A stretch of 62,178 nt of DNA from Paludibacteraceae bacterium (GTDB taxonomy: Bacteria; Bacteroidota; Bacteroidia; Bacteroidales; Paludibacteraceae), in NCBI GenBank assembly GCA_024401455.1, contig JAKSLA010000015.1, forward strand, positions 1 through 62,178, written 5' to 3'. The notes beneath the pieces were generated by a model that did no database searches, was not told where the DNA came from, and saw only the letters and a list, made by a program, of their open reading frames with translations. The translations under genes were made by a program, and so were the position numbers. This document shows positions 1-59,317 of the stretch, in pieces; position 1 is the first letter of the stretch, and each line of letters starts with the position of its first letter.

Positions 1-982
1 GTCCGCCGTTTATCTCGTTGCCGAGCGATACGTATTCGGGGTAGATCTCTCTTTGAGCCAACTCCTTCATGATGCGTCGGGTGTAGTCACCGAGCAGTTG
101 CGTTAGTTTTTGCACAATGGCGTTCCTATCGTTCATCCATTGTATTTCTTGCTTCCAGTCTGCCGGAATGTTTTGTCGCTCTCCGTTCGACCAATAGTCG
201 GAATAGTTGAAGGTAAATTGGATTTTCATGCCCTCTTCGTGTGCCAATTCGGCCAAGAGTAGGCAATCTTTCTCGTCTTGAAAACCTTCGGGCAGGAAGT
301 AGGTGTTGGAGTTGTCTGGCTGTGACTTGCCAGGAAGGTTGGAGAGGCGGATGCGGACCAGATCCATCCCCTTCTTGCGAAGGAAACGGATGACGTTGCG
401 AGCCTTCTCCTCCATTGGGTCGTTGGGATGATAAAGCGGCTCGCCCTTCTCGTCGTAGTAATTGCCTCCGTTGGCAAGGACGTAGTTGAGTTCGGTGATG
501 TCGCCGCCTTGGCCAAATGAGTAGGCTTTCTGTTCGCGTGCTATTTGGATTTTATCGATGAACAGGTCGTGAGAACCGTCGTTTTCAAATCCCACTTCCA
601 ATAGGCCGTCTTCGCTTTGAACGCCTTTGACGATGACGTTGGTTGGGGAAAATTCGGATTGGGGAATGGCCGTTGAGGCTTGGGTGAAACCTTCTCCTTG
701 TCCGAAGACGAAGCAAGTGCCGTTGCTGGCAGACGATTGCACCTCTGTTTTTATCACATAACTGCCTTGTTCGACTTTTGTCTTTTGTGAGACTTTCGTA
801 TTCTCGCCTGCATAGATATGTAACTTCCCGTTTTCGATAGTGGCTTTTCCCCCTTCGATTTTCCACCCGTCTATTGCGTTGAAGTCTGCGTTTTTCAGTT
901 CTTGGGCAGAAATGGAGGTTACCGCCATCCATACTGGCAATAGGGCGATCAGCCTTTTGTTGTGTTTTTCATTGATGCGCAT
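1..982 (-). CDS. GH53 endo-beta-1,4-galactanase, 3' part outside window
   Basis: Secreted arabinogalactan endo-galactanase that would cut beta-1,4-galactan side chains of pectin. The reading frame is open from an ATG at 982 to the window edge (327 complete codons). Residues 1-26 form a signal peptide ending SISA-QE. Residues about 27-155 form a beta-rich region without a catalytic motif, probably an accessory or carbohydrate-binding domain. The GH53 domain starts near residue 158 (GGDITELNYV) and shows MDLVRIRLSNLP. The general acid/base motif GNEI has its Glu at residue 323. The nucleophile Glu lies beyond the edge. No other gene is close on this strand, and the next gene is divergent. The family assignment is fairly sure. 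The exact specificity is inferred. Confidence 0.85.
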   Translation of the reverse strand, partial: MRINEKHNKRLIALLPVWMAVTSISAQELKNADFNAIDGWKIEGGKATIENGKLHIYAGENTKVSQKTKVEQGSYVIKTEVQSSASNGTCFVFGQGEGFTQASTAIPQSEFSPTNVIVKGVQSEDGLLEVGFENDGSHDLFIDKIQIAREQKAYSFGQGGDITELNYVLANGGNYYDEKGEPLYHPNDPMEEKARNVIRFLRKKGMDLVRIRLSNLPGKSQPDNSNTYFLPEGFQDEKDCLLLAELAHEEGMKIQFTFNYSDYWSNGERQNIPADWKQEIQWMNDRNAIVQKLTQLLGDYTRRIMKELAQREIYPEYVSLGNEINGG

Positions 983-1185
983 GGCCTAATCTATGTCTGT
1001 GTTTTTTAATATGGTTAAAACGATGCAATTTACGAAAAAAAAAGAGGATAGTGACGGTTGAAAATGTGTTCGAGAACATATATAAAAGAAAGTTCCAATA
1101 TTGGGGAATTTGTATGCGTTGTAAATGCTTATCGTTGTTTGAGTGATTTATTTTAAGATTGATGTAAATTTTTTGCACATTTTCC

Positions 1186-1216
1186 TTTGTTTTGTGTATT
1201 TTTCTGCCTATTTTTG
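1186..1216 (+). promoter_or_regulatory. Bacteroidota-type promoter of the acyl-CoA ligase gene
   Basis: TTTG at 1186-1189, 19 bases, then TATTTTTG at 1209-1216. This matches the Bacteroidota -33/-7 consensus (TTTG, N19-21, TAnnTTTG) and leaves a 5' leader of about 18 bases before the ATG at 1240. Confidence 0.7.
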
Positions 1217-1239
1217 CACATATTTTATTAAAATGAGCA

Positions 1240-2910
1240 ATGGTAAATAAGAATTTCATTAAACTCTTCGAGGAGTCCTTTAAAGAAAATTGGGATCATT
1301 TGGCGATGTCGGATTACGCCACAAAGACAGATTATACATATAAGCAAGTGGCAGAAGAGGTGGCTAAGATGCACCTTTTGTTTAAGGAATTAGGCATAAA
1401 GGAGGGCGAAACCATCTCTTTGGTAGGAAAGAATACGCCAGCGTGGGCAATTACGTTCATCTCTGTAGTAACTTATGGAGCGGTTATCGTTCCTATTTTG
1501 CAGGATTTCCACCCAGACGATATTCAGCACGTTGTCAATCACTCGGATTCGTCGCTTCTTTTCTTGAGCGATAATATTTGGGAAAACATCGACGAGAGCA
1601 AGGTCAATAATTTGAGGGGCATCTTCTCTTATTCGGAGTTCAGATGTTTGTACCAAGGTCCAGGCGAGACGATCCAAAAGACGATGAAGCAGTTGGATGC
1701 TCTTTTTGCCGAGCGTTATCCTAATGGTTTGACAAAAGAGGATGTCGTATATTCCAATAGGACAAATGATGAGATGGTTGTCCTCAACTATACATCAGGT
1801 TCGACCGGTTTCAGCAAGGGTGTAATGTTGAATGGTAATGCGTTCATGGGTAACATTGACTTCATGTTTGAGCATACGAATCTTTCAAGTAAGACAGGAA
1901 GAAAGAAACTTTTGACCTTCTTGCCATTGGCTCACGTTTATGGTTGCACGTTGGACTTCCTTGGTCAGATCACCTCGGGTTCTCATATCACGTTCTTGAA
2001 CCGTGTTCCTTCTCCAAAAATTTTGTTGAAGGCATTGGAGGAGGTTCAGCCAGATGTCATCTTTACTGTGCCTTTGATTATCGAAAAGGTGTACAAGGCG
2101 ATGATTGTTCCTTTGTTGGAGAAGGCTTCTACGCAAGCAGCAATGGCTATCCCAGAGTTGAGAGACAAGATGTACGCCGAAATCAGTAATAAATTATATA
2201 ATGCGTTCGGTGGTAAATTTATTGAGATTGTGCTTGGCGGTGCCGGCGTCAATGCTGAGGTGGACGAGTTCTTGTGCAAGATAAAGTTCCCTTTCACGGT
2301 AGGTTACGGTATGACGGAGTGTGCTCCGCTTATCAGCTACTGTTCAAAGGATCAGCATAAGGTCGGTTCGGCAGGTATCTTGCTTACCAATATGGAGGCT
2401 AAGATTGTTTCTGACGATCCAGAAAACATAGCAGGCGAACTTTTGGTGAAGGGTCCTAACGTCATGATGGGTTACTACAAGAATCCGGAGGCAACGGCGG
2501 CTGCGTTTACAGAAGACGGCTGGATGCGTACGGGTGATATGGCTACGATGGACAGCGAAAAACACATCTTCCTCAAGGGCCGTTGCAAGAATATGATTTT
2601 GGGTGCTTCTGGTCAGAACATCTATCCTGAGACTATCGAGGCTAAGATTTCTAACTTGCCGTTCATCCAAGAGTGCGTTGTTATCGCCCGCGAGAGTAAG
2701 CTTGTCGCTTTGGTTTATCCTGATTTCGCCGCTATGGACGAGAATAATGTCAGCCGCGACGAATTGGATGTGATCATGGAGGAGAATAGAAAGACAATCA
2801 ATAAGTCGCTCGCATCATACGAGGCTATCACAAAGATGGTTATCTTCCCTAATGAGTTTGAAAAGACGGCTAAGAAGAACATCAAGCGTTACTTGTACGA
2901 GGGTCTATAA
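1240..2910 (+). CDS. AMP-forming acyl-CoA ligase (long-chain fatty acid-CoA ligase type)
   Basis: Adenylates a carboxylic acid with ATP and transfers it to CoA (or an acyl carrier). The protein has 556 residues, a usual length for the ANL family. The P-loop-like motif YTSGSTGFSKG is at about 183-193, the A5 motif GYGMTE near 354-359, the A7 motif GWMRTGD near 427-433, and the C-terminal hinge and lysine region ends KKNIKRYLY. There is no membrane segment. It is a single gene, with its own promoter close upstream and a terminator downstream. Family members of this size in Bacteroidales are annotated as long-chain acyl-CoA synthetases. The acyl substrate cannot be read from the sequence. Confidence 0.88.
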   Translation: MVNKNFIKLFEESFKENWDHLAMSDYATKTDYTYKQVAEEVAKMHLLFKELGIKEGETISLVGKNTPAWAITFISVVTYGAVIVPILQDFHPDDIQHVVNHSDSSLLFLSDNIWENIDESKVNNLRGIFSYSEFRCLYQGPGETIQKTMKQLDALFAERYPNGLTKEDVVYSNRTNDEMVVLNYTSGSTGFSKGVMLNGNAFMGNIDFMFEHTNLSSKTGRKKLLTFLPLAHVYGCTLDFLGQITSGSHITFLNRVPSPKILLKALEEVQPDVIFTVPLIIEKVYKAMIVPLLEKASTQAAMAIPELRDKMYAEISNKLYNAFGGKFIEIVLGGAGVNAEVDEFLCKIKFPFTVGYGMTECAPLISYCSKDQHKVGSAGILLTNMEAKIVSDDPENIAGELLVKGPNVMMGYYKNPEATAAAFTEDGWMRTGDMATMDSEKHIFLKGRCKNMILGASGQNIYPETIEAKISNLPFIQECVVIARESKLVALVYPDFAAMDENNVSRDELDVIMEENRKTINKSLASYEAITKMVIFPNEFEKTAKKNIKRYLYEGL

Positions 2911-6422: not shown

Positions 6423-7757
6423 TTAATTGAATAGTCTATCCAATTTGTGGATGCTGGAGGAGAGGCTGAATACGATGACGTTGTCATTCGGTTCAATCTC
6501 AGTGTTACCGTTGGCGATATGTCCCTCTCCGTTTCTTACGATGCCACCGATGAAGATGTCATGCGGCAATTTCAAGTCCTTGAGTTTGCCTTTGGTGATG
6601 TCCGAGTTGAGTTTTGCCGTTACCTCCACCACTTGGGCATCCACATGGGTGAGGCCTTTCACTTTGTTGACGGCTGCGTCGAGGGTATATTGGAATATGG
6701 CACTCGCGGCGATCAATTTCTTGTTGATAACGGTACCGATGTCGAGGTTCTCCGCAAAACGGATGTAGTCATTGTTTTCTACTTCCGAGATAGTCTTCTG
6801 CAATCCAAGCGATTTGGCTGCGATGCAGGCAAGGATGTTGGCTTCCGAATTGCTGGTCAAGGCCACGAAAGCGTCCATGCTTTCGATATCCTCTTCCTGT
6901 AATATCTTCGTGTCGCTGGCATCGGCGTTGATGACGAGCGTGCCGTCCGGTAGCAATTCGTTTAGTCGGTCGGCTTTGTTCAAATCTTTTTCCAGCACCT
7001 TCACCGTCATGTTGTCAGGAAGGGATTCTACCGTCTTCACCGTCATGCGGCTACCTCCCATAATCATGATGTCGCGCACGTTGATGACGTCTTTTCCTGC
7101 GGCCTCCCTCACCTTAGGAATGAACTCCTTGGTAGTGATGAAGTAGCAGATGTCATTAGGGAGGATCAAATCTTGTCCTTTCGGAATGATGGTTTGTGTG
7201 TCTCGGCTGATAGCAACGACACGGTAGCCTTCGCTGTCTGTCAAGTCCATCAAGCGATGGTTGACGATAGGGGCGTTGGCCCTGACTTTGATACCGATTA
7301 GGGTGAGTGCTCCATCGTTGAACTCCATCCATTGGCGTACCCAGTTCATACGCAAGGAGTTAACAATCTCTTCAGCGGCAAGTAGTTCGGGGTAGAACAT
7401 GGCGTTGATACCCAATTTCTCAAAGAAAGCCTTGTTTTCTGGAAGCAAGTATTCGTAGTTGTCGATACGGGCTACTGTCTTTTTCGCTCCGAGGTTCTTT
7501 GCTAAGATGCAGGCTGTAATGTTCTGACTCTCGTTGGGTGTGACGGCTATGAAAAGGTCCGCCTTCTTTACTTGTGCCTCAATGAGGTCTTTCAACGATG
7601 TTGGCGAGCCTTCAATGGTCATGATGTCATATTTTTCTTGGATTTTGTGGACTTTCAATTTGTCCTCTTCAAGAAGGAATATGTCGTGCTTCTCGTTTGA
7701 AAGTTTGCTTGCCAAGTGTGTGCCTACTTCGCCGGCACCTGCTATTGTGATTTGCAT
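6423..7757 (-). CDS. trkA: Trk system potassium uptake regulatory protein TrkA
   Basis: Cytoplasmic nucleotide-binding ring subunit that gates TrkH. It has 444 residues with the duplicated RCK_N-RCK_C layout. The first Rossmann motif GAGEVG is at 7-12, with the acid of the nucleotide ribose site at the end of the next strand (LLEED). The second RCK_N starts near 230 (IMIMGGSRMTVKTVE), a form with a weaker glycine motif. The two RCK_C parts follow each Rossmann domain. It is the first gene of the trkA-trkH operon. Confidence 0.93.
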   Translation of the reverse strand: MQITIAGAGEVGTHLASKLSNEKHDIFLLEEDKLKVHKIQEKYDIMTIEGSPTSLKDLIEAQVKKADLFIAVTPNESQNITACILAKNLGAKKTVARIDNYEYLLPENKAFFEKLGINAMFYPELLAAEEIVNSLRMNWVRQWMEFNDGALTLIGIKVRANAPIVNHRLMDLTDSEGYRVVAISRDTQTIIPKGQDLILPNDICYFITTKEFIPKVREAAGKDVINVRDIMIMGGSRMTVKTVESLPDNMTVKVLEKDLNKADRLNELLPDGTLVINADASDTKILQEEDIESMDAFVALTSNSEANILACIAAKSLGLQKTISEVENNDYIRFAENLDIGTVINKKLIAASAIFQYTLDAAVNKVKGLTHVDAQVVEVTAKLNSDITKGKLKDLKLPHDIFIGGIVRNGEGHIANGNTEIEPNDNVIVFSLSSSIHKLDRLFN

Positions 7758-8114
7758 TTTCTTCTTAATTACGTTTCTTAGAGATGGTTTCGCCGTTTCT
7801 TTTTTAGAATCGACAGATGATTTCTCCGCCTTGGAAACAATTGATGAGCGGATTCTACCTCTCTTTTTTATTTATACCAACCCGTAGAGACGTCCCCATG
7901 GGGCGTCTCATGGGCAAAGCCCTTTTTCGTTTAGAAAGCCTCTGCCCTCAGAAATCCTTTGCGTTTAATTCTATCGTATTGGTTTGTCAAGGAATCTGGG
8001 ATACAAATTTAGTTATATTTTTTGTATTCGAGATATGAAATGGCAAAAAGCGAAAAACGCTATGAGCCTTTCGTGATATATGCTTGGATTTGATTGCCAG
8101 ACGCTATCCTAAAG
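7758..8114. other. Intergenic stretch with one dispersed palindromic repeat
   Basis: Lies between trkA and the PAP2 gene, both on the minus strand. It holds the REP-like element at 7881-7909 and otherwise AT-rich sequence upstream of trkA. I see no gene and no convincing RNA in it. Confidence 0.5.
7881..7909 (+). repeat. REP-like palindromic element, copy 1
   Basis: CCCGTA followed by GAGACG-T-CCCC-AT-GGGG-CGTCTC, a near-perfect palindrome with one bulged T. The same 29 bases occur as reverse complement at 30728-30756, and a shortened copy is at 47322-47346. All three lie between genes. Confidence 0.8.
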
Positions 8115-8801
8115 TTATGCCCAAGCGGGGGTAAGAGAGAGGATGGCAAACACGGCAAAAGTGCCCATCAGAAGGGAAACAAGGATGTTGAGGTCTTTTC
8201 TCAAAAATCCGGACTCGGTGAAGACTGAGTTGGGCGTCCGGAAGGGCTCTCCGAAAAATCTTCTATAGCAGAAGTAGCAGAAAAAGCCGACGGAGATACC
8301 CAATAGGGTACCTACCAAGATGTCGCCGGGGAAGTGAACGCCTAAGTAAATACGAGAGTAGGCGCATACTGCAGCCCACAGCAAAGCGGCGAACGTGTAT
8401 AGTCGGTTACGGAAAAGCAATGCCGAGAAAGTGGCAAATCCAAATGAGTTGGCGGCGTGTGAGGAAGGGAAGCCGAACTGGCCGCCATGGTAATCACGCA
8501 CATATTCCAGCATATCCATTACCAATGGATCGTGGCTGGGACGAAGCCGGGCAACGTAAGGCTTTAGTAGCGAAGAGGAGATTTGGTCGCAGAGCAAGAA
8601 TACGATTGCGATGGCAAGGACAATCCACAAGGCTTGTTTGCCTTTCGTTTTGTACAAAATGTATATCAGCATTAAGATGACAGGCAACCAAACAACTATC
8701 ATAGAGGACATCCACATGAATCCATCAAGAAATACATTGTGCGAACCACTTAAATTCAACTGGACCATCAATTCACGGTCCAACGCCAATAACTGCTCCA
8801 T
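8115..8801 (-). CDS. PAP2-superfamily membrane phosphatase
   Basis: Integral membrane acid phosphatase, probably acting on lipid phosphates such as undecaprenyl pyrophosphate or phosphatidylglycerophosphate. The start chosen is the ATG at 8801 (MEQLLALDRE), which gives 228 residues. An upstream ATG at 8876 would add 25 residues that are unlike the family. The three phosphatase motifs are present: K80...RP at 87-88, PSSHAAN at 112-118, and SRIYLGVHFPGD at 149-160 with the catalytic His. It has five or six membrane helices. Its lipid substrate cannot be assigned from sequence. Confidence 0.85.
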   Translation of the reverse strand: MEQLLALDRELMVQLNLSGSHNVFLDGFMWMSSMIVVWLPVILMLIYILYKTKGKQALWIVLAIAIVFLLCDQISSSLLKPYVARLRPSHDPLVMDMLEYVRDYHGGQFGFPSSHAANSFGFATFSALLFRNRLYTFAALLWAAVCAYSRIYLGVHFPGDILVGTLLGISVGFFCYFCYRRFFGEPFRTPNSVFTESGFLRKDLNILVSLLMGTFAVFAILSLTPAWA

Positions 8802-37991: not shown

Positions 37992-39278
37992 TTATCTGAC
38001 TATTGTATTTGTGCCGATTAACCATTCGTAAGCTGAAATACATTTTATTTTAATGTTTTGATACTCAATGGTTTCGTTGTGGCTGTTGGTAATCAACCAA
38101 ACATTGTCACATTTAGTGGCCTTAGCTGCTGATACACATCCCGCAATTTCACGTTGGCGAGTTTTGTCAGAAGAAATATCGTAACTTACCTGATAAACGC
38201 CGGTTACTGTATTCCCATCAACGGTCAAGAAATCACATTCGCTCTTTTGTACAGCATAATAATATATGTCTTCGCTTGCATATTTCATGCGTCGGCGTAA
38301 TTCCAGATAAACTATTGTTTCCAATCGCCAGCCTAAATTGCTGCCAACCAAGGCATTTTGTCTTTTATTCATCATAGCCACATCTATCGCATAGATTTTT
38401 TCGCTTTGTGTTCTTATACTGCTCTTGTTGGAATATTTTTTAATCGGCAAAATTAGGTACGCCTGCATCAAATACGAAAGGTAATTATCCATTGTGATTG
38501 CAGACTTAATTTCCAATAAATTACACAAATCGGGTTTGTTTATTATTGCAGGAGAAATATTCAAAAGATGTTGAGACAATCTGCGGAGTGCCTCGATATT
38601 CCTTATGTTGAATCTTCGTTTGATATCTTGTGTTAATATGCTTTCATATAATGAATTAACATATCCTAATGCGTCCTTTTCATACAAAAGTTCTGGCAAT
38701 CCTCCTTGTGATAGATATTGGTCGAATGCTCTTGCAATCAGACCTCTATTTTTAGTGGACAATGGAGATAACGTGACTTGATTATACTCACAGAATTCAG
38801 CGAAAGAGAAGGGTAATAACTCTATCTTAGAATGTCTTCCCGTAAGATGTGTAGCCAAATCTTGAGACAACAACTTGGAATTACTACCTGTTATAAGCAA
38901 ATGTTTCCCTTGACGCAACAAACGATTTATGAAAAGTTCCCAATGCTCCACATTTTGAATTTCATCAAAAAAGAAATATTCCAAATCTCCGTTTATTTGA
39001 TATAAAGTCAGAAGTATATCATCTAAATCATCCGCCTTAATTCCTCCTAATCTTTCATCATCAAAATTAATATACCCAAATTTCACTTTTGCTTTTTTTA
39101 AAACATTTTTGCAAAGAGTTGATTTGCCACATCGTCTGACACCTATCACTACTTGAGCAAGATGGCTGTTTAAGTCAACTAAATCTTCTTCCTTACGATG
39201 ACAGAGGTTTGGAATGGACTGGGTTCCCAATTCTTCTGTCTGATCTATAAGTATTTGTTTTAATTTCTCTTTGTCCAT
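37992..39278 (-). CDS. AAA_14 / DUF4143 ATPase
   Basis: A 428-residue protein of the widespread AAA_14-DUF4143 family in Bacteroidales, with no agreed function. Walker A GVRRCGKST is at 46-54, Walker B YFFFDEIQN at 101-109, sensor LLITGSNSKLL near 130, and the C-terminal DUF4143 part carries a nuclease-like basic and acidic patch (YYYAVQKSECDFLTVDGNTVTGVYQVSY), comparable to the core of PD-(D/E)XK folds (EC-D...Q). It is more AT-rich than its neighbours and stands alone, with the 33-base tandem repeats directly upstream, which suggests horizontal acquisition. Confidence 0.85.
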   Translation of the reverse strand: MDKEKLKQILIDQTEELGTQSIPNLCHRKEEDLVDLNSHLAQVVIGVRRCGKSTLCKNVLKKAKVKFGYINFDDERLGGIKADDLDDILLTLYQINGDLEYFFFDEIQNVEHWELFINRLLRQGKHLLITGSNSKLLSQDLATHLTGRHSKIELLPFSFAEFCEYNQVTLSPLSTKNRGLIARAFDQYLSQGGLPELLYEKDALGYVNSLYESILTQDIKRRFNIRNIEALRRLSQHLLNISPAIINKPDLCNLLEIKSAITMDNYLSYLMQAYLILPIKKYSNKSSIRTQSEKIYAIDVAMMNKRQNALVGSNLGWRLETIVYLELRRRMKYASEDIYYYAVQKSECDFLTVDGNTVTGVYQVSYDISSDKTRQREIAGCVSAAKATKCDNVWLITNSHNETIEYQNIKIKCISAYEWLIGTNTIVR

Positions 39279-52750: not shown

Positions 52751-53518
52751 ATGAAAATGAATAGAATATTGAGTGTGGCGGTATGTGTGGCAACATTGTT
52801 GTTTGCCGGAGTTGAGGCTTCTGCTCAACGCGGAACTTCTACTCGTTCATCCTCATCGTCAACAACGACAGTAACAAGTTCAGGCCGTAGTTCGGCATCC
52901 GACCGCAATGCGACAACGAGAGATCACAGTAATGTGGCTCCTCGCAATGCGAAGTCGTCAACGACATCGTCAACGTCAAAGCCTGCTGCTCCGGAAGCAA
53001 AGCCGACTTTGGAGCCTCGTGGTTCCGTGCAGACGGGTACGAACAACAAGCGTTTGAAGCCAGAGCACGTTTCGCCTTCTGAAAATTACAAGAAATTGCC
53101 TTCTCGCGGAACGACAGTTACCAAGTACAAGGCAACGAAGAATGCTCACTATGTGAAACATGGAACGGTGGATTACTATTTTAAGAAGGGCGTATTCTAT
53201 AGTTACGATCCTATCCACAAGCACTATGTTGTGTCTCGTCCGCCAGTAGGCTTGAGGGTGCCAACCATTCCTCAGTCTCGCATCATCTATTTGCATGATA
53301 CGAACTATTATTACTACTACGGAGTGTTCTATAGAAGAGTGGCTTCGGTTTATGAGGTTGTCCTTCCTCCTGTAGGTGCTATCGTTGAGAGCATCCCTGA
53401 TGGATACGAGCAACTTATGATCAACGGAAACACTTACTATATTGTCGATGGCGTACAGTACAAAGCGGTAGTATATCACGGCGAAATTTGGTATGAGGTG
53501 ATTAAACTATTGGATTGA
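52751..53518 (+). CDS. DUF6515-type secreted Tyr-rich protein
   Basis: A 255-residue secreted protein with a signal peptide up to about residue 25 (FAGVEASAQ-RG). Residues 27-90 are Ser/Thr-rich low complexity. The C-terminal half has the repeated pattern of DUF6515: YYFKKGVFYSYDPIHKHYVVSRPPVGLRVPTIP, YYYYYGVFYRRVASVYEVVLPPVGA and NTYYIVDGVQYKAVVYHGEIWYEV. Met3 is an alternative start. Function is not known. The layout suggests a surface-exposed or envelope-spanning beta protein. Confidence 0.8.
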   Translation: MKMNRILSVAVCVATLLFAGVEASAQRGTSTRSSSSSTTTVTSSGRSSASDRNATTRDHSNVAPRNAKSSTTSSTSKPAAPEAKPTLEPRGSVQTGTNNKRLKPEHVSPSENYKKLPSRGTTVTKYKATKNAHYVKHGTVDYYFKKGVFYSYDPIHKHYVVSRPPVGLRVPTIPQSRIIYLHDTNYYYYYGVFYRRVASVYEVVLPPVGAIVESIPDGYEQLMINGNTYYIVDGVQYKAVVYHGEIWYEVIKLLD

Positions 53519-53539: not shown

Positions 53540-53571
53540 AAGGGGGGCTAATCCAACGATTGGCTCCCCTT
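53540..53571 (+). terminator. Terminator after the DUF6515 gene
   Basis: Stem AAGGGGGGCTAAT / ATTGGCTCCCCTT (one mismatch), six-base loop, then TGTTTG. It marks the left edge of the AT-rich island. Confidence 0.65.
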
Positions 53572-53575
53572 GTTT

Positions 53576-53775
53576 GTGTGTGTTCGCACGAACGTATTCT
53601 AACGGGTGGGAGTCCCTCAACCGCCCAAACAGAGGGAAAGCTACTGCCAAAAGTAGTGTCTCTATCGTGATGTGAAATCTGAAGGAAGCATAACTTTAAC
53701 ATAGCAAGTGCTCTCCTAATAACAGTAAGAGGAAAACAACCTACGTTATCTTCCTCCTACTCGATTGAAGGAAAT
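53576..53775 (+). ncRNA. Probable 5' remnant of a group II intron (domain I region)
   Basis: It starts GTGTGTGTTCGCACGAACG and contains blocks typical of bacterial group II intron domain I: an AACGGGTGGGAGTCCC segment, GGGAAAGCTACTGCC with its pairing partner AAAGTAGTG, CTGAAGGAAGC, and AGTAAGAGGAAAACAAC. No intron reverse transcriptase gene and no convincing domain V or VI follow, so it is a fragment. The assignment rests on recognition of these motifs and should be tested with a covariance model. Confidence 0.5.
53586..53613 (+). repeat. 28-base direct repeat, left copy
   Basis: GCACGAACGTATTCTAACGG continuing GTGGGAGT. It matches 56995-57022 in 26 of 28 bases. The two copies enclose the AT-rich island, and this copy lies within the intron-like sequence. 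Confidence 0.85.
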
Positions 53776-53859
53776 ACAACATCCATATGTATTTTTACCT
53801 TATTTGTGAACAGATTTTGATTACTAATTGTATTTTTGCTTTATCTTAAGTTGTAAAAA

Positions 53860-55962
53860 ATGGCAATTCATATATATAGTAAAAAAATCTGTGATAATAA
53901 TAAAGATTTATTTGATTATCGAGATAAAGTAATTAGTGAACCTTTAATATTCTCAGATTGTGAGTTTGAAACAGATGTTCTCTTTCAATATTGTAATATT
54001 GAGAGTCGAATTATGTTTGAAAGATGTGTTTTCAACAAACAATTGATCTTTGGAGATAAGAAAGATAGTTATCATGCCTATGTTTCTCAAAACATCGAAT
54101 GTAATGATTGTACATTTCATGACAAGGTATTGCTAGATGGTTTGATATGTAAGGGAAATGTATTTTTCAGTAAATGTGTTTTTTCATACAAGAGTCAAGA
54201 TTATAGTGATTACGGGTTAAGTATTAGTCGCTCGGTTATAGATAATTCATTACAACTTCGGAATTGTGAGTTTAATTGTGGTATTGATTTTTCAAACAGC
54301 AATTTCACGCATAATGGATGTGTTTTTGAAGAAGTCAATATAAAATCAAAAAAAGGAGTATTAGATTTTTCGTCTTGCCATGTTGGAAAAGAATTGACTT
54401 TCCATAAATGCCAAATAGTCATTGGTATGATAAGGATGGAGCAGTTAGGAGTAAATGAGTCAACAGGAAGCGTGAAATTTATTGGTGATGGGAATGCTAT
54501 ATCTAAAATAGAACTTACAGACAATCTATTAGAAAGAATCAAAGATCCTAATACGAGAATTGAATTTATTCTGTCATTACCAATTATTGAAGAATATGGT
54601 GGCTATAAGTCTTTCTCTATAATGAGAGAGAATATTATTACAGTTCGTGTTGGAAATGGTTTTCTCTGTTTCAAAAAGGAAGAAAAGAATGAGAGAGTAT
54701 ATTTCAGTGTTTATAATTGGGGGTACTTGAAAGTTATAAATGATTTTTTTCTAAGTAACGGGAACTTAGGATGTACTGTTTTTTTTGAGGATATAGAGGT
54801 TCATTGTACTATTTTAGATGTCCAAGAATCAAGATGTGGAAGTTTTACTATTGACAATGCCGTTATTGAAAGCAATGTGTGGGATTTAAGGAGTATGCAG
54901 ATTTCCAATAATTTTAATGTGAATCATACTCTGTGCCAGTTTTTCGATATGGGTTTGGATATGGATAAGTTGTTTAAAAAGAGTAAGTTTGGCCATATTC
55001 AAACATGTTCCACCGAGATTGGACATGATTTTGACTTTAATGATAATTACTTTGAAATAGCCGGATTAAATGGAGAGCCTTTTTATGATGAAGAAGGTAA
55101 TGTTGACTTGACGCCACGGTCTGTTCATTTGGATTTTGATCGAATGAGAATTGGGGGATCTATTACAATGGAAAACTTATATTTATCTCGTCACTCTCAT
55201 TTAATTGATACCAATAATGAATCAGAGATAATAGCTCATGAATTACATGTTAATTTGGAGGCTACGACAACAGAGACATGTTTTTTTAATTTTACAGATG
55301 AAAACTGGTGCAATCTTTATATTGAAGACTTCAAATTTGCTAATATATTGATAAACGGAAAATTACCAGGTAAAACAGAGTTGATTGCTATGATTCCAAA
55401 AGAATCAAGTTTTATAAGGCCGAAGGAATACGATAAGATAGTAAAAGGTTCTAAGCAAGGATGTAATATACAAACTGGTATGATAAGTTTTATGCGAGAC
55501 TGCCAGGATAAATTGATTAAAACCAAAGATGGATACGATGAAGCAAATGAAATTTGGAGATTGAGAAACCAATTAAGGCTGTTTCAACAATACAAGAACA
55601 AAAGATTAAAATATTTCCTATACAGAACATGGAATAAGTTTACAGATTTTGGGCTTACAAGTACCACAATTCTCTATGTTGTATTGGGGGTATTTGTATT
55701 ATATCTTGGGCTAAATATATTAATATTATCACTTTATACACAATATGATATTGCATCTGATAAGATGAGTGTGATTGGTCAAAGTCTGATTCAGTATATT
55801 CCAACAATTGATTTTGGAGATGAAATAAAAATAATTAATTTTGAGCAGGGGCTTCCGCCAGAGTATAAATATCTGGTAATAGCAGCGAGAATAACTGGTT
55901 TTATTCTTATTTCGATTTTAATTGCATCACTTGGAGGACTTTGGAAAGGCCGAAACAAATAA
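53860..55962 (+). CDS. Pentapeptide/beta-helix-like protein with two C-terminal membrane helices
   Basis: A 700-residue protein without signal peptide, much more AT-rich than the genes around. Residues about 25-200 are built of short strands with the pentapeptide-like pattern (FSDCEFETDVLF, FERCVFNKQLIF, CNDCTFHDKVLL, FSKCVF, LRNCEFNCGIDF). A second such stretch runs at about 305-430. The C-terminal 100 residues have a helix at about 602-625 (ILYVVLGVFVLYLGL), a loop with LIQYIPTIDFGDE, and a helix at about 671-695 (ILISILIASLGGLW). This end resembles that of actinobacterial membrane proteins with pentapeptide repeats (LLPVVDLG followed by a GW helix). Function unknown. It is probably membrane-tethered with a cytoplasmic solenoid. 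Confidence 0.65.
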   Translation: MAIHIYSKKICDNNKDLFDYRDKVISEPLIFSDCEFETDVLFQYCNIESRIMFERCVFNKQLIFGDKKDSYHAYVSQNIECNDCTFHDKVLLDGLICKGNVFFSKCVFSYKSQDYSDYGLSISRSVIDNSLQLRNCEFNCGIDFSNSNFTHNGCVFEEVNIKSKKGVLDFSSCHVGKELTFHKCQIVIGMIRMEQLGVNESTGSVKFIGDGNAISKIELTDNLLERIKDPNTRIEFILSLPIIEEYGGYKSFSIMRENIITVRVGNGFLCFKKEEKNERVYFSVYNWGYLKVINDFFLSNGNLGCTVFFEDIEVHCTILDVQESRCGSFTIDNAVIESNVWDLRSMQISNNFNVNHTLCQFFDMGLDMDKLFKKSKFGHIQTCSTEIGHDFDFNDNYFEIAGLNGEPFYDEEGNVDLTPRSVHLDFDRMRIGGSITMENLYLSRHSHLIDTNNESEIIAHELHVNLEATTTETCFFNFTDENWCNLYIEDFKFANILINGKLPGKTELIAMIPKESSFIRPKEYDKIVKGSKQGCNIQTGMISFMRDCQDKLIKTKDGYDEANEIWRLRNQLRLFQQYKNKRLKYFLYRTWNKFTDFGLTSTTILYVVLGVFVLYLGLNILILSLYTQYDIASDKMSVIGQSLIQYIPTIDFGDEIKIINFEQGLPPEYKYLVIAARITGFILISILIASLGGLWKGRNK

Positions 55963-56071
55963 TGCATTCTTTGATAATTACAAAAAGTGTTATTGTAGAA
56001 CATATCTGAAAATAACTGAACACAAAACAATTTCAGAAGAAGAGATTCAATGCAAGTGTAATAGAAAATGA
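55922..56071 (+). pseudogene. Relic of a third zinc-ribbon peptide
   Basis: A frame of 49 codons, without ATG (TTG at 55922), that overlaps the end of the 700-residue gene in another frame and stops at 56071. Its end KCYCRTYLKITEHKTISEEE followed by IQCKC parallels the zinc-ribbon part of the next two genes (CPQCKKMTEHEYKSEDRLKC), but the CxxC pairs are broken. It is read here as a decayed copy. Confidence 0.4.
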
Positions 56072-56093
56072 TTAATTATTAAACTCAAAAAAT

Positions 56094-56276
56094 ATGCAGT
56101 TACCCATTAGTTTCATAATATCTGGTATAGACCGACGAGAGATGAAGTCGAATGACAAATTTGGACAGACAAAGAAATCTTATTGTCCCCAATGCAAGAA
56201 GATGACAGAACATGAATACAAATCAGAAGATAGGTTGAAATGTTCTGAATGTGGGAATATAAATGAAGAAGGTTAA
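56094..56276 (+). CDS. Small zinc-ribbon protein, copy 1
   Basis: A 60-residue protein. A hydrophobic start (MQLPISFIISGIDRRE) may be an untranslated leader if Met17 is the real start. The C-terminal part is a compact zinc ribbon, CPQCKKMTEHEY and KCSECGN, with two CxxC pairs. It lies directly before its near copy (the TAA is followed at once by ATG) in an AT-rich operon with the 700-residue membrane protein. Function unknown. Ribbons of this size often accompany membrane or nucleic-acid-binding proteins. Confidence 0.6.
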   Translation: MQLPISFIISGIDRREMKSNDKFGQTKKSYCPQCKKMTEHEYKSEDRLKCSECGNINEEG

Positions 56277-56504
56277 ATGTTAATAATAAGAATTATAAAA
56301 ATGGGTTTGTTAGATATTTTAAAAGGTACTGGTGTAGTAGCGGCTTGTGCTAGTCCAGTTTTTAGAAAGACGTATAAAGATAGTTTAATTGGGTCATCTA
56401 AAAAGTATTTTTGTTCCCAATGCAAGAAAATGTTACAGCATAAGTACATATCAGAAGAAGAATTGAAATGTTCTGAATGTGGGAATATAAGCATAGAGGA
56501 TTAA
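56277..56504 (+). CDS. Small zinc-ribbon protein, copy 2
   Basis: A 75-residue frame starting immediately after the previous stop. Met9 at 56301 (MGLLDILKGTGVVAACASPVF) is the more likely start. A Gly/Ala-rich hydrophobic segment, perhaps membrane-associated, is followed by the ribbon FCSQCKKMLQHKY and KCSECGN. The ribbon is a clear duplicate of the preceding gene, with the same spacing and the motif SEEELKCSECGNI. Function unknown. Confidence 0.6.
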   Translation: MLIIRIIKMGLLDILKGTGVVAACASPVFRKTYKDSLIGSSKKYFCSQCKKMLQHKYISEEELKCSECGNISIED

Positions 56505-56540
56505 AGTTTTCCATAGTAACTATTTTGGATTCGTGTATAT

Positions 56541-56849
56541 ATGATTAATGTTAATTCGAAGGCCGATATAAAAGAAGCTTTAAATAGAGGTGAAAGAGAG
56601 TTTTATACAAGTAATAAAACACTTTTGTACGCTTGTGCTTTAGTGTCTAAGGTAAAATCTTTTTCGTTTTTGACTTTAGGATTAAAGGCCAATATGTCAG
56701 TTGCCTTGGCAGAAACAACCGTCATTGTAATTACTATAGCTGTGCTTACTACAGCAGTGGCGTTGTATGCTATATTTAAGGACTATGATATAGAAGTGGA
56801 TATCCCAAATGGAAGGATAAAGTGTAGAAAAAAAGTAGAAGAAACTTAG
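56541..56849 (+). CDS. Small membrane protein of the AT-rich island
   Basis: A 102-residue protein of unknown function. It begins with a short soluble part (INVNSKADIKEALNRGEREFY), has a weak hydrophobic region (40-55), and a strong membrane helix at about 58-80 (TTVIVITIAVLTTAVALYAIF), then a charged tail (DIEVDIPNGRIKCRKKVEET). It is the fourth same-direction gene of the island, 36 bases after the second zinc-ribbon gene. Confidence 0.6.
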   Translation: MINVNSKADIKEALNRGEREFYTSNKTLLYACALVSKVKSFSFLTLGLKANMSVALAETTVIVITIAVLTTAVALYAIFKDYDIEVDIPNGRIKCRKKVEET

Positions 56850-56994
56850 TGTGAATCGTAATATCTACGATTAAGTTAAAACATAATAACTTGTTCAAAA
56901 AACAGAAATATAAATGTTAGCCATAGATGCGATGGCCGTTCTCACGCCGATAGGTACCCTGCCCCTAACAGAATGCCTATCTTGGGGTCGCCCT

Positions 56995-57022
56995 GCACGA
57001 ACGTATTCTGACGGGTGGAAGT
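56995..57022 (+). repeat. 28-base direct repeat, right copy
   Basis: GCACGAACGTATTCTGACGG continuing GTGGAAGT. It is the partner of 53586-53613. The intron-like sequence that follows the left copy is absent here. Confidence 0.85.
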
Positions 57023-57121: not shown

Positions 57122-57178
57122 ATTCCGGTCAGGAGTTGACTGAAGTCCGTAGGACGGAAGGAGACTCCTGACCGGAAT
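57122..57178. repeat. Perfect 15-base inverted repeat at the transposase end
   Basis: ATTCCGGTCAGGAGT at 57122-57136 and its exact complement at 57164-57178, 27 bases apart. It covers the transposase stop codon. It may be an insertion-sequence end or a terminator for the transposase gene. Confidence 0.7.
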
Positions 57179-57974
57179 GCAAAGGTAAAGACTTCTCAGT
57201 GTTAACAAAATTATTTTTGGCTTTTATCGCTACATGTCTGTATCTTGTCCATTTCATATCCCTGTCGCCCGTACAATTTGCAGCCTCAGCTGGTGTCATC
57301 ATACCGATGCTCATGTGTGGTCTTCTGTTGTTATAGAAGTCGACTGCTACGGCTACTGCTGCGACAACTTCAGCCATGTTTCTAAATACTTTGTCCTTGA
57401 GAAGCTCATTCTTCATCGTATTGTTGATGCGTTCTGCTTTGGCATTATCCCTTGGGTCTCCAGACTCAGTCATACTTACTCGTATTCCGTGCTTTCTCAG
57501 TAGTTCAACATATTCGCGACTTGCTGCGTATTGGCAGCCTCTGTCTGAGTGGTGTATGAGATCGACCTCCTTCCCTTCTATGCGGCGCAACGCCATCCTT
57601 AAGGCCTCCAATGGGTAATCCGTGTCAAGTGACGGTCCTACACACCATCCTACAATCTCCTCGCTGTAGGCATCTAGCATGAGAGACAGATAGCAGAAAT
57701 GATAGTGACTGTCGTCATCGTTTACCATGATATATGTTATATCGCTAACCCATAGTCTGTTGGCTGTCGCCGGAAGATACTCTCTTATGAGATTTGGATA
57801 TGTCGGCAATCCATGCGCGGAGTCGGTCGTCTGTGGTTTTCGTGTTCGCCTACGAACCTTCAGACCATTCTCGTCAATGATTCGAAAGAAACGATCTCTA
57901 CCTGTGTCAACTTTTTTCAGGATAAGACAAGGTTGTTTCCCTCCTACTTTTTTATTTGTAGATCGGGGTGTCAT
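57129..57974 (-). mobile_element. IS3-family transposase (orfB), 5'-truncated
   Basis: A frame from the ATG at 57974 (MTPRSTNKKV) to the stop at 57129, 281 residues. The integrase core is intact with the DDE triad Asp78 (VSDITYI), Asp144 (HHSDRGCQYA) and Glu181 (AKAERINNTMKNEL). The normal N-terminal HTH_21 domain is cut, and only its end (GGKQPCLILKKVDTGRDRFF) remains. No orfA is present. The ATG overlaps the rarA stop (ATGA), so the element fragment was joined exactly to the 3' end of rarA. It is probably not able to transpose on its own. Confidence 0.85.
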
Positions 57975-59245
57975 TTCTTCCTTTCTCCCCAGAGTCGTTT
58001 CATATTGTCGTGTAGGCGGGCTTCGGCAGGGTTGTCTTGCGCCAGCCAGAATTGGGTGCCTTGAATCTCTTTTGGCATATAGTCTTGGACGACGAAGTGG
58101 CCTTCGTAGTCGTGGGCGTATTTGTATTCTTTCCCGTAGTTGAGTTCCTCCATTAGTTTGGTAGGTGCGTTGCGGAGATGCAATGGCACCGGCAAATCTC
58201 CCGTTTGGCTGACGGCTGCCAGAGCGGAACCGATGGCCTTGTAGGCGGAGTTGCTTTTCGGGCTTGTGGCCAAATAGACGGTGGCTTCTGCCAAAAGAAT
58301 GCGACCTTCTGGCCAGCCTATTTTTTGTAAGGCGTCGAAGCATGCGTTGGCCATTAGCAACGCGTTGGGGTTGGCGAGGCCGATATCCTCTGCGGCTGAA
58401 ATGACCAGTCGGCGGGCAATGAATTTAGGGTCTTCGCCTCCTGCCACCATACGCGCCAGCCAGTAGATGGCGGCATCGGGGTCGCTGCCACGGATGGATT
58501 TTATGAAGGCGGAGATGATGTCGTAGTGCATCTCGCCGTTCTTGTCGTAGGCGTTCGGGTTTTGTTGTAGGCGCTCCACCACTTTGTCGTTGGTGATGTG
58601 GATTTCTGCCCCTTCCTCTTCGGCGTTGACTACAAGGTCTATGATGTTGAGTAGTTTGCGGGCGTCGCCACCTGAGAAGCGGAGCATGGCATCCGTTTCG
58701 TCAAGCAATATGGTGCGTTTCTTTAATTCAATGTCATTGTGAATCACGCGGTTGGCGAGTTCTATCAAGTCGCTTTTTTCGAGAGACTTCAAGACATAAA
58801 CTTGGCAACGGGAAAGCAATGGGGTGATGACTTCAAACGATGGGTTTTCCGTCGTGGCACCGATTAGCACGACCACGCCTTGCTCTACGGCTCCGAGTAG
58901 GGAGTCCTGCTGAGCCTTCGTGAATCGGTGAATCTCGTCGATGAATAGGATAGGAGGGGCGGAGTTGAAGAAGCGAGAACTTTTCGCCTTCTCGATAACT
59001 TCGCGTACCTCTTTCACGCCCGAACTGATGGCGCTCAAAGTAAAGAATGGGCGTTCGAGTTTTTTTGCAATGATGTTGGCGAGCGTCGTTTTCCCCACTC
59101 CGGGAGGGCCCCATAGGATGAAGGAGGAAACGAAGCCCGAATCGAGCATTCTCCGGAGGATGGAGTTCGCACCCACCAGATGTTTTTGTCCTATATAATC
59201 GTCCAATGTCTGAGGACGCATTCTTTCTGCTAACGGTTGTGGCAT
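57971..59245 (-). CDS. rarA: Replication-associated recombination protein A
   Basis: AAA+ ATPase working at stalled replication forks (MgsA/WRNIP1 family). The start chosen is the ATG at 59245 (MPQPLAERMRPQTL), giving 424 residues. A frame to 59317 exists but would cross the -7 box. Walker A GPPGVGKTT is at 46-54, Walker B LFIDEIHRF near 98, and the MgsA C-terminal domain contains RGSDPDAAIYWLARMVAGGEDPKFIARR. The stop codon TGA overlaps the ATG of a truncated transposase, so the last residues could differ from the ancestral form. The ending RLWGERKK looks family-like. Confidence 0.92.
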   Translation of the reverse strand: MPQPLAERMRPQTLDDYIGQKHLVGANSILRRMLDSGFVSSFILWGPPGVGKTTLANIIAKKLERPFFTLSAISSGVKEVREVIEKAKSSRFFNSAPPILFIDEIHRFTKAQQDSLLGAVEQGVVVLIGATTENPSFEVITPLLSRCQVYVLKSLEKSDLIELANRVIHNDIELKKRTILLDETDAMLRFSGGDARKLLNIIDLVVNAEEEGAEIHITNDKVVERLQQNPNAYDKNGEMHYDIISAFIKSIRGSDPDAAIYWLARMVAGGEDPKFIARRLVISAAEDIGLANPNALLMANACFDALQKIGWPEGRILLAEATVYLATSPKSNSAYKAIGSALAAVSQTGDLPVPLHLRNAPTKLMEELNYGKEYKYAHDYEGHFVVQDYMPKEIQGTQFWLAQDNPAEARLHDNMKRLWGERKK

Positions 59246-59305
59246 ATCGAACGAGGTCGGGCAGCCTAAACCACCCCTATTTTTTAATGAATCGAAATTG
59301 AGCCT

Positions 59306-59313
59306 CAAAGATA
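59306..59313 (-). promoter_or_regulatory. -7 box of rarA
   Basis: TATCTTTG on the minus strand, about 60 bases before the ATG at 59245 and downstream of the alternative ATG at 59317, which supports the shorter start. Confidence 0.5.
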
Positions 59314-59317
59314 ACAT

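Follow-up and report, generated by a model that had tools for sequence, protein, structure and literature searches.

A probable orphan accessory gene cluster and separate group IIC intron relics in a draft Paludibacteraceae genome

Pentapeptide-repeat proteins such as Qnr, MfpA and AlbG, the group IIC introns of bacteria, and the ORFan clusters left by integrative elements are the described systems closest to the locus considered here, a compact run of same-strand genes in a 62,178-nucleotide stretch of DNA from a Paludibacteraceae bacterium (contig JAKSLA010000015.1 of assembly GCA_024401455.1; the whole stretch is called the window below). The run encodes a 700-amino-acid (aa) pentapeptide protein, zinc ribbons and a 102-aa membrane protein, and a pair of short direct repeats flanks it. 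We put a probability of about 0.8 on its being a genome-specific orphan accessory cluster with separate intron relics that did not carry it; the account as a whole, including the mechanism suggested further on, we regard as somewhat probable. Taken together, the locus appears to be an orphan accessory cluster of an ordinary sort, whose large membrane protein is curious but unproven.

One published article links ORFans to integrative elements (PMC2718499). Our cluster resembles the ORFan clusters of such elements in its unique genes, its deviant composition and its absence from a congener, but no integrative-element gene was found beside it. The 700-aa protein is far longer than Qnr, MfpA, AlbG and other pentapeptide-repeat proteins and, unlike them, has two C-terminal membrane helices; the solenoid that it has in common with Qnr, MfpA and AlbG says nothing of gyrase binding. 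The repeats recall bacterial group IIC introns in their domain I sequence, 3' end and position behind hairpins, but differ from working introns in that one copy is internally deleted and the other consists of a 5' end only.

The cluster occupies positions 53860-56849 on the plus strand. A first-pass annotation of the sequence had described it as a same-direction cluster of a 700-aa protein, a zinc-ribbon relic, two zinc ribbons and a small membrane protein, and open reading frames (ORFs), Pfam, profile matches and hydrophobic peaks all agree with that description. The pentapeptide/beta-solenoid protein with its two C-terminal membrane helices lies at 53860-55962, as judged from the ORF list, Pfam, hydrophobicity and structure models. 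Then come a decayed zinc-ribbon copy at 55958-56056 (profile match, E 8.2e-4), zinc-ribbon gene 1 at 56094-56276 (up to 60 aa; ORF, profile and tandem repeat with gene 2), zinc-ribbon gene 2 at 56301-56504 (67 aa from the likely start at 56301, which was judged from genus relatives; the ORF, of 75 aa, opens at 56277) and the small membrane protein of 102 aa at 56541-56849 (ORF and hydrophobic peak). Strand and spacing suggest a single short operon. The sharply deviant base composition noted earlier was confirmed as well: positions 53860-56849 have 31.1% G+C, same-size segments elsewhere on the contig have at least 37.9% (mean 44.3%, sd 2.5), and the third-position G+C (GC3) of the 700-aa gene, 0.25, is the lowest among the 42 mechanical ORFs listed. 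The source genome is a 3.27-Mb draft of 119 contigs, 90.3% complete and with 5.28% contamination, in which the window is contig 27.

The gene set was found at no second locus in the genome samples that we searched; these numbered 61, 393, 300 and 296 genomes and partly overlapped, which leaves room for a rare recurrence. Island DNA gave no match in plasmids or phages, and our literature search found no title describing this gene set. In one congener (G003), the left-flanking DUF6515 gene and the right-flanking rarA gene stand about 0.68 kb apart, with neither cluster nor intron nor IS3 remnant between them, and the cluster is therefore an accessory segment. The slot in G003 (locus L020, about 7580-8250) holds a different minus-strand frame of some 80 codons, as counted by eye, so the slot varies between congeners. 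Behind DUF6515 in G001 and G002 lies other sequence, of which roughly 8.5 kb and 9.4 kb, respectively, were read without meeting rarA.

The direct repeats, at 53586-53613 and 56995-57022, are 93% identical over 28 bases, and the proposal that they derive from introns was upheld when they were aligned to a group II intron of the congener G002. Copy 1 lies within an internally deleted group IIC intron relic at 53578-53766 (plus strand; start approximate), of which the pieces 53586-53689, 53688-53713 and 53727-53766 are collinear with 25-129, 394-419 and 783-822 of the G002 intron stretch (E 4.6e-25, 0.001 and 1.5e-4; the database searched was very small). With 5', middle and 3' pieces in collinear order, the relic reads as a shortened intron that has kept its two ends, and it lies wholly before the cluster. 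Copy 2 matches only the first stretch of the G002 intron and lies at 56976-57022 (plus strand; 83% over 47 bases), in what is left of the 5' end of another group IIC intron. The relics are shorter than 200 and 50 bases, respectively, and contain no catalytic core; they are thus remnants, and neither is functional as it stands. Against Rfam, the window alone gave nothing at gathering level (group-II-D1D4-3 at 53661-53711 reached 18.8 bits, the cut-off being 32), and the G002 intron scored 155 bits for group-II-D1D4-3, 49.7 for group-II-D1D4-1 and 45.8 for Intron_gpII. That group IIC intron (L025, about 725-1540, minus strand) is some 0.8 kb long and lacks a full reverse-transcriptase frame.

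A 17-base core of the repeat, with up to two mismatches allowed, occurs 3 times in the window's own genome, 13 times in G001, 4 times in G002 and not at all in G003, against 0, 2, 1 and 1 occurrences of a reversed-pattern control; a similarity search added one further copy in the own genome (L002). Contigs end 80-126 bases past the motif start in 12 of the 13 G001 copies and 3 of the 4 in G002, as expected because a multi-copy element breaks assemblies. In two other contigs of the own genome, 97 and 107 (L002 1501-1620 and L003 1501-1640), a second short element opens like this intron and then runs on for some 130 bases that are unlike it but agree at 95% between the two copies. It may be a small repeat in its own right, derived from the intron.

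One review (PMC3898094) names hairpins, for example those of terminators, as a recognition determinant. Copy 1 follows a terminator hairpin behind DUF6515 at 53540-53571 (plus strand; 14 pairs; fold z -6.0), which was picked up by a terminator scan that found 2 in the region against 1.3 expected, and copy 2 follows a hairpin behind the cluster at 56949-56981 (plus strand), a possible terminator by its fold (z -1.8). Across the genus sample (13 ends in G001, 4 in G002 and 4 in the own genome), a hairpin with z below -2 precedes 20 of 21 intron 5' ends, copy 2 being the exception; the shuffles behind these z values keep base content only, and for copy 2 the stretch folded had 49 bases, not 47. 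Since intron ends follow strong hairpins in the genus, the repeats are best read as marks of gene ends and not of island borders. We suggest that two separate introns inserted, one behind DUF6515 and one behind the cluster, and that their scars would record the ends of two transcription units; the identity of the introns and their position are shown, and the independence of the insertions and the order of events are what we infer. Separate insertions behind two units explain both the same orientation of the repeats and their flanking position without any mobility of the cluster. Repeats around a foreign-looking segment can thus mislead, for terminator-homing elements scar each transcription unit and thereby mimic the borders of an island.

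The 700-aa protein belongs to the pentapeptide family by its Pentapeptide_3 match (1.6e-12, 47.9 bits, cut-off 27). Structure models predict an N-terminal beta-solenoid, with fair model confidence for residues of about 20-115 only, and a C-terminus of helix, helix, short helix and helix; the hydrophobic peaks fall at 604-622 and 672-690. A search of 61 related genomes matched two, one match being the protein itself and the other a 281-aa pentapeptide protein in G024. Two of 393 genomes of the order matched, itself included, and the other, a partial match in an 867-aa protein, was judged unrelated by eye. Phages, plasmids and PDB sequences gave no match, and GTDB contigs and viral contigs gave no confirmed match in scans that were seeded by exact short peptides and had only close relatives within reach. 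The C-terminal 160 aa matched 8 of 296 genomes of the phylum, one of the matches being itself; four of the other seven resembled unrelated membrane proteins when read, and the remaining three (L059, L061 and L062) were covered by short pieces of frame only. Against PDB, the C-terminal 120 aa had a single match, to a designed helix (E 0.27). As far as sequence comparison reaches, the protein is without an accepted relative in the samples searched.

The pentapeptide family PF13576 is present in 18 of 41 genomes, and we read 20 pentapeptide loci, which represent 19 distinct proteins. Another protein, which carries an N-terminal signal and lacks C-terminal helices, accounts for the copies in the own genome (L078) and in G001, G002 and G003. 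Two of the 19 distinct proteins, both from Bacteroidales (L089 in G049 and L092 in G016), have the same layout as the window protein in that they also end in two membrane helices, but their C-termini align to it no better than shuffles do (144 and 149 of 500 reach the score), and kinship is without support. L092 matched 7 plasmid records at below 60% query coverage, by position in its pentapeptide parts only, and no phage; the C-terminal part of L089 had two weak matches among 395 genomes. The 700-aa protein would be an orphan example of a membrane-attached pentapeptide solenoid. To our knowledge, no role of this layout is established.

Zinc-ribbon genes 1 and 2 form a tandem repeat with 78% identity over 106 bases. 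Two CxxC-type knuckles are present, and their four cysteines are invariant across five aligned copies; every Pfam zinc-ribbon match fell below its curated cut-off, however, so we claim no named family. Between the two intact genes, nonsynonymous divergence (dN) is 0.20 and synonymous divergence (dS) 0.82 over 34 codons, a small sample. A single-sequence search matched 3 of 61 genomes, and a profile matched 4 of 300, namely the own genome (contig 79), G001 (two copies), G002 (one copy) and G578. The last of these was rejected as a weak match to a 144-aa protein with a different zinc-binding start and no adjoining cluster gene. The family was found at three loci in two named metagenome-assembled genomes of Paludibacteraceae, and the nearest named records are such genomes from water-buffalo reticulum and yak rumen; judging by its congeners, the window's organism is probably of this kind. 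There were no matches in phages, plasmids or viral contigs, and against PDB the profile found ribosomal and other zinc ribbons (best 0.0059). Judged on these searches, convincing relatives are limited to the genus. No other cluster gene was seen beside them in ORF lists inspected by eye (L052 from 6 kb onwards, the whole of L053, the opening 8 kb of L054, and 8 kb of L055). Where zinc-ribbon genes stand alone at contig ends, G+C-rich, repeat-like sequence lies directly before them (L052 9672-10275, in contig 79 of the own genome; L053 1-300; L054 1-385).

The 102-aa protein has its hydrophobic peak at 61-79 and a weak resemblance to holins (E 0.02 and 0.14). Among 300 genomes of the family it matched twice, once to itself and once to a 29% stretch in a 1053-aa frame that we judged to be chance; it has no match in phages, plasmids or viral contigs and no accepted relative. 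From this anatomy, we suggest that the two C-terminal helices may anchor the 700-aa protein in the inner membrane and leave its solenoid to serve as a cytosolic binding surface, that the duplicated zinc ribbons are likely small cytosolic adaptors and that the 102-aa protein is likely a membrane partner. Such a membrane-anchored solenoid scaffold is a tentative reading, to which we would give slightly less than even odds. The loop between the two helices could possibly form a pore, although we think pore activity decidedly improbable. Still further from probable would be a solenoid-gated membrane pore of a new kind, in which the cytosolic solenoid, on binding a ligand or partner, would open a two-helix pore that includes a re-entrant short helix, with the zinc-ribbon adaptors and the small membrane protein tuning it.

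The cluster might instead be a true mobile island between two intron copies, moved for example by recombination of the direct repeats, and two same-direction 28-base repeats around a segment missing in G003 are what such an island would leave. We consider this very unlikely, given that the relic at copy 1 also holds middle and 3' intron pieces ahead of the cluster, that hairpins precede the other intron 5' ends of the genus with no need of such a cluster, and that no mobility gene of the cluster's own was found. Of the island proposed in the first-pass annotation, the accessory, foreign-looking, AT-rich segment is supported, and the repeats as borders of one unit are not. It is also unlikely, if less so, that the segment is decaying or artefactual, either defunct foreign DNA or part of another genome joined in by misassembly. 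One zinc-ribbon copy has decayed, IS3 and intron remnants lie around the cluster, and the draft is fragmented and partly contaminated; yet a 700-codon frame is intact at 31% G+C, the dN and dS of the living zinc ribbons, small sample though it is, speak against decay, the bordering stretches match elsewhere in the own genome over 28-40 bases only, and the zinc-ribbon family belongs to the genus.

A defence or stress module had been considered, and the locus had been put forward as a candidate for an undescribed system, a view said to fail if its genes never occur together elsewhere. An abortive-infection module, in which the solenoid senses a product of infection, the helices open a pore and the zinc ribbons and small membrane protein regulate it, would suit a compact same-strand cluster of a membrane protein with small partners, its accessory presence and the holin resemblance. 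However, PADLOC had no match for either membrane protein, its zinc-ribbon matches, the best at 4.5e-4, were weak and fell on zinc-binding regions in proteins such as Cas12f, and the part of the window examined, from 50 to 60 kb, showed no phage, integrase or defence gene. Neither a family match nor recurrence of the set, the marks of membership in a defence system, was found in the samples searched, those from other Bacteroidales included. We therefore hold such a module to be highly improbable, and the view of an undescribed system fails on present data, which are those of the sampled genomes. Several points do weigh against the orphan accessory cluster with separate intron relics that we prefer. 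The gap in G003 shows no alignment to the window and has a small reading frame of its own, so the comparison of genomes with and without the segment, which the first-pass annotation had proposed, establishes that the segment is missing there but supplies no exact empty site. Among the 21 hairpins, that before copy 2 is the weakest, and the terminator scan did not flag it. The structure models come from single sequences, with mean predicted local distance difference test (pLDDT) scores of 40.2 and 64.0. Joint expression of the cluster genes is something that we infer, and the promoter candidate is weak.

That candidate, at 53803-53838 on the plus strand, consists of TTTG, 24 bases and TAnnTTTG, a pattern like that of Bacteroidota promoters; we rate it weak because TAnnTTTG alone is present in 252 of 2000 shuffles and occurs four times within the cluster. 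To the left of the cluster lies the DUF6515 gene (52751-53518, plus strand; Pfam DUF6515, 2.2e-27), which is also present in G001, G002 and G003. To the right, on the minus strand, are an N-terminally truncated remnant of an IS3-family transposase (57129-57970; NF033516, 4.5e-60, profile positions 148-368 of 369) and the convergent rarA gene, which encodes an MgsA-type AAA+ ATPase (57971-59317; MgsA_C, 5.4e-72). The remnant abuts the rarA stop, and its mechanical ORF continues into rarA. A second AT-rich gene in the window, at 37992-39278 on the minus strand, has 35.3% G+C and a GC3 of 0.32 and encodes an ATPase with AAA_14 and DUF4143 domains.

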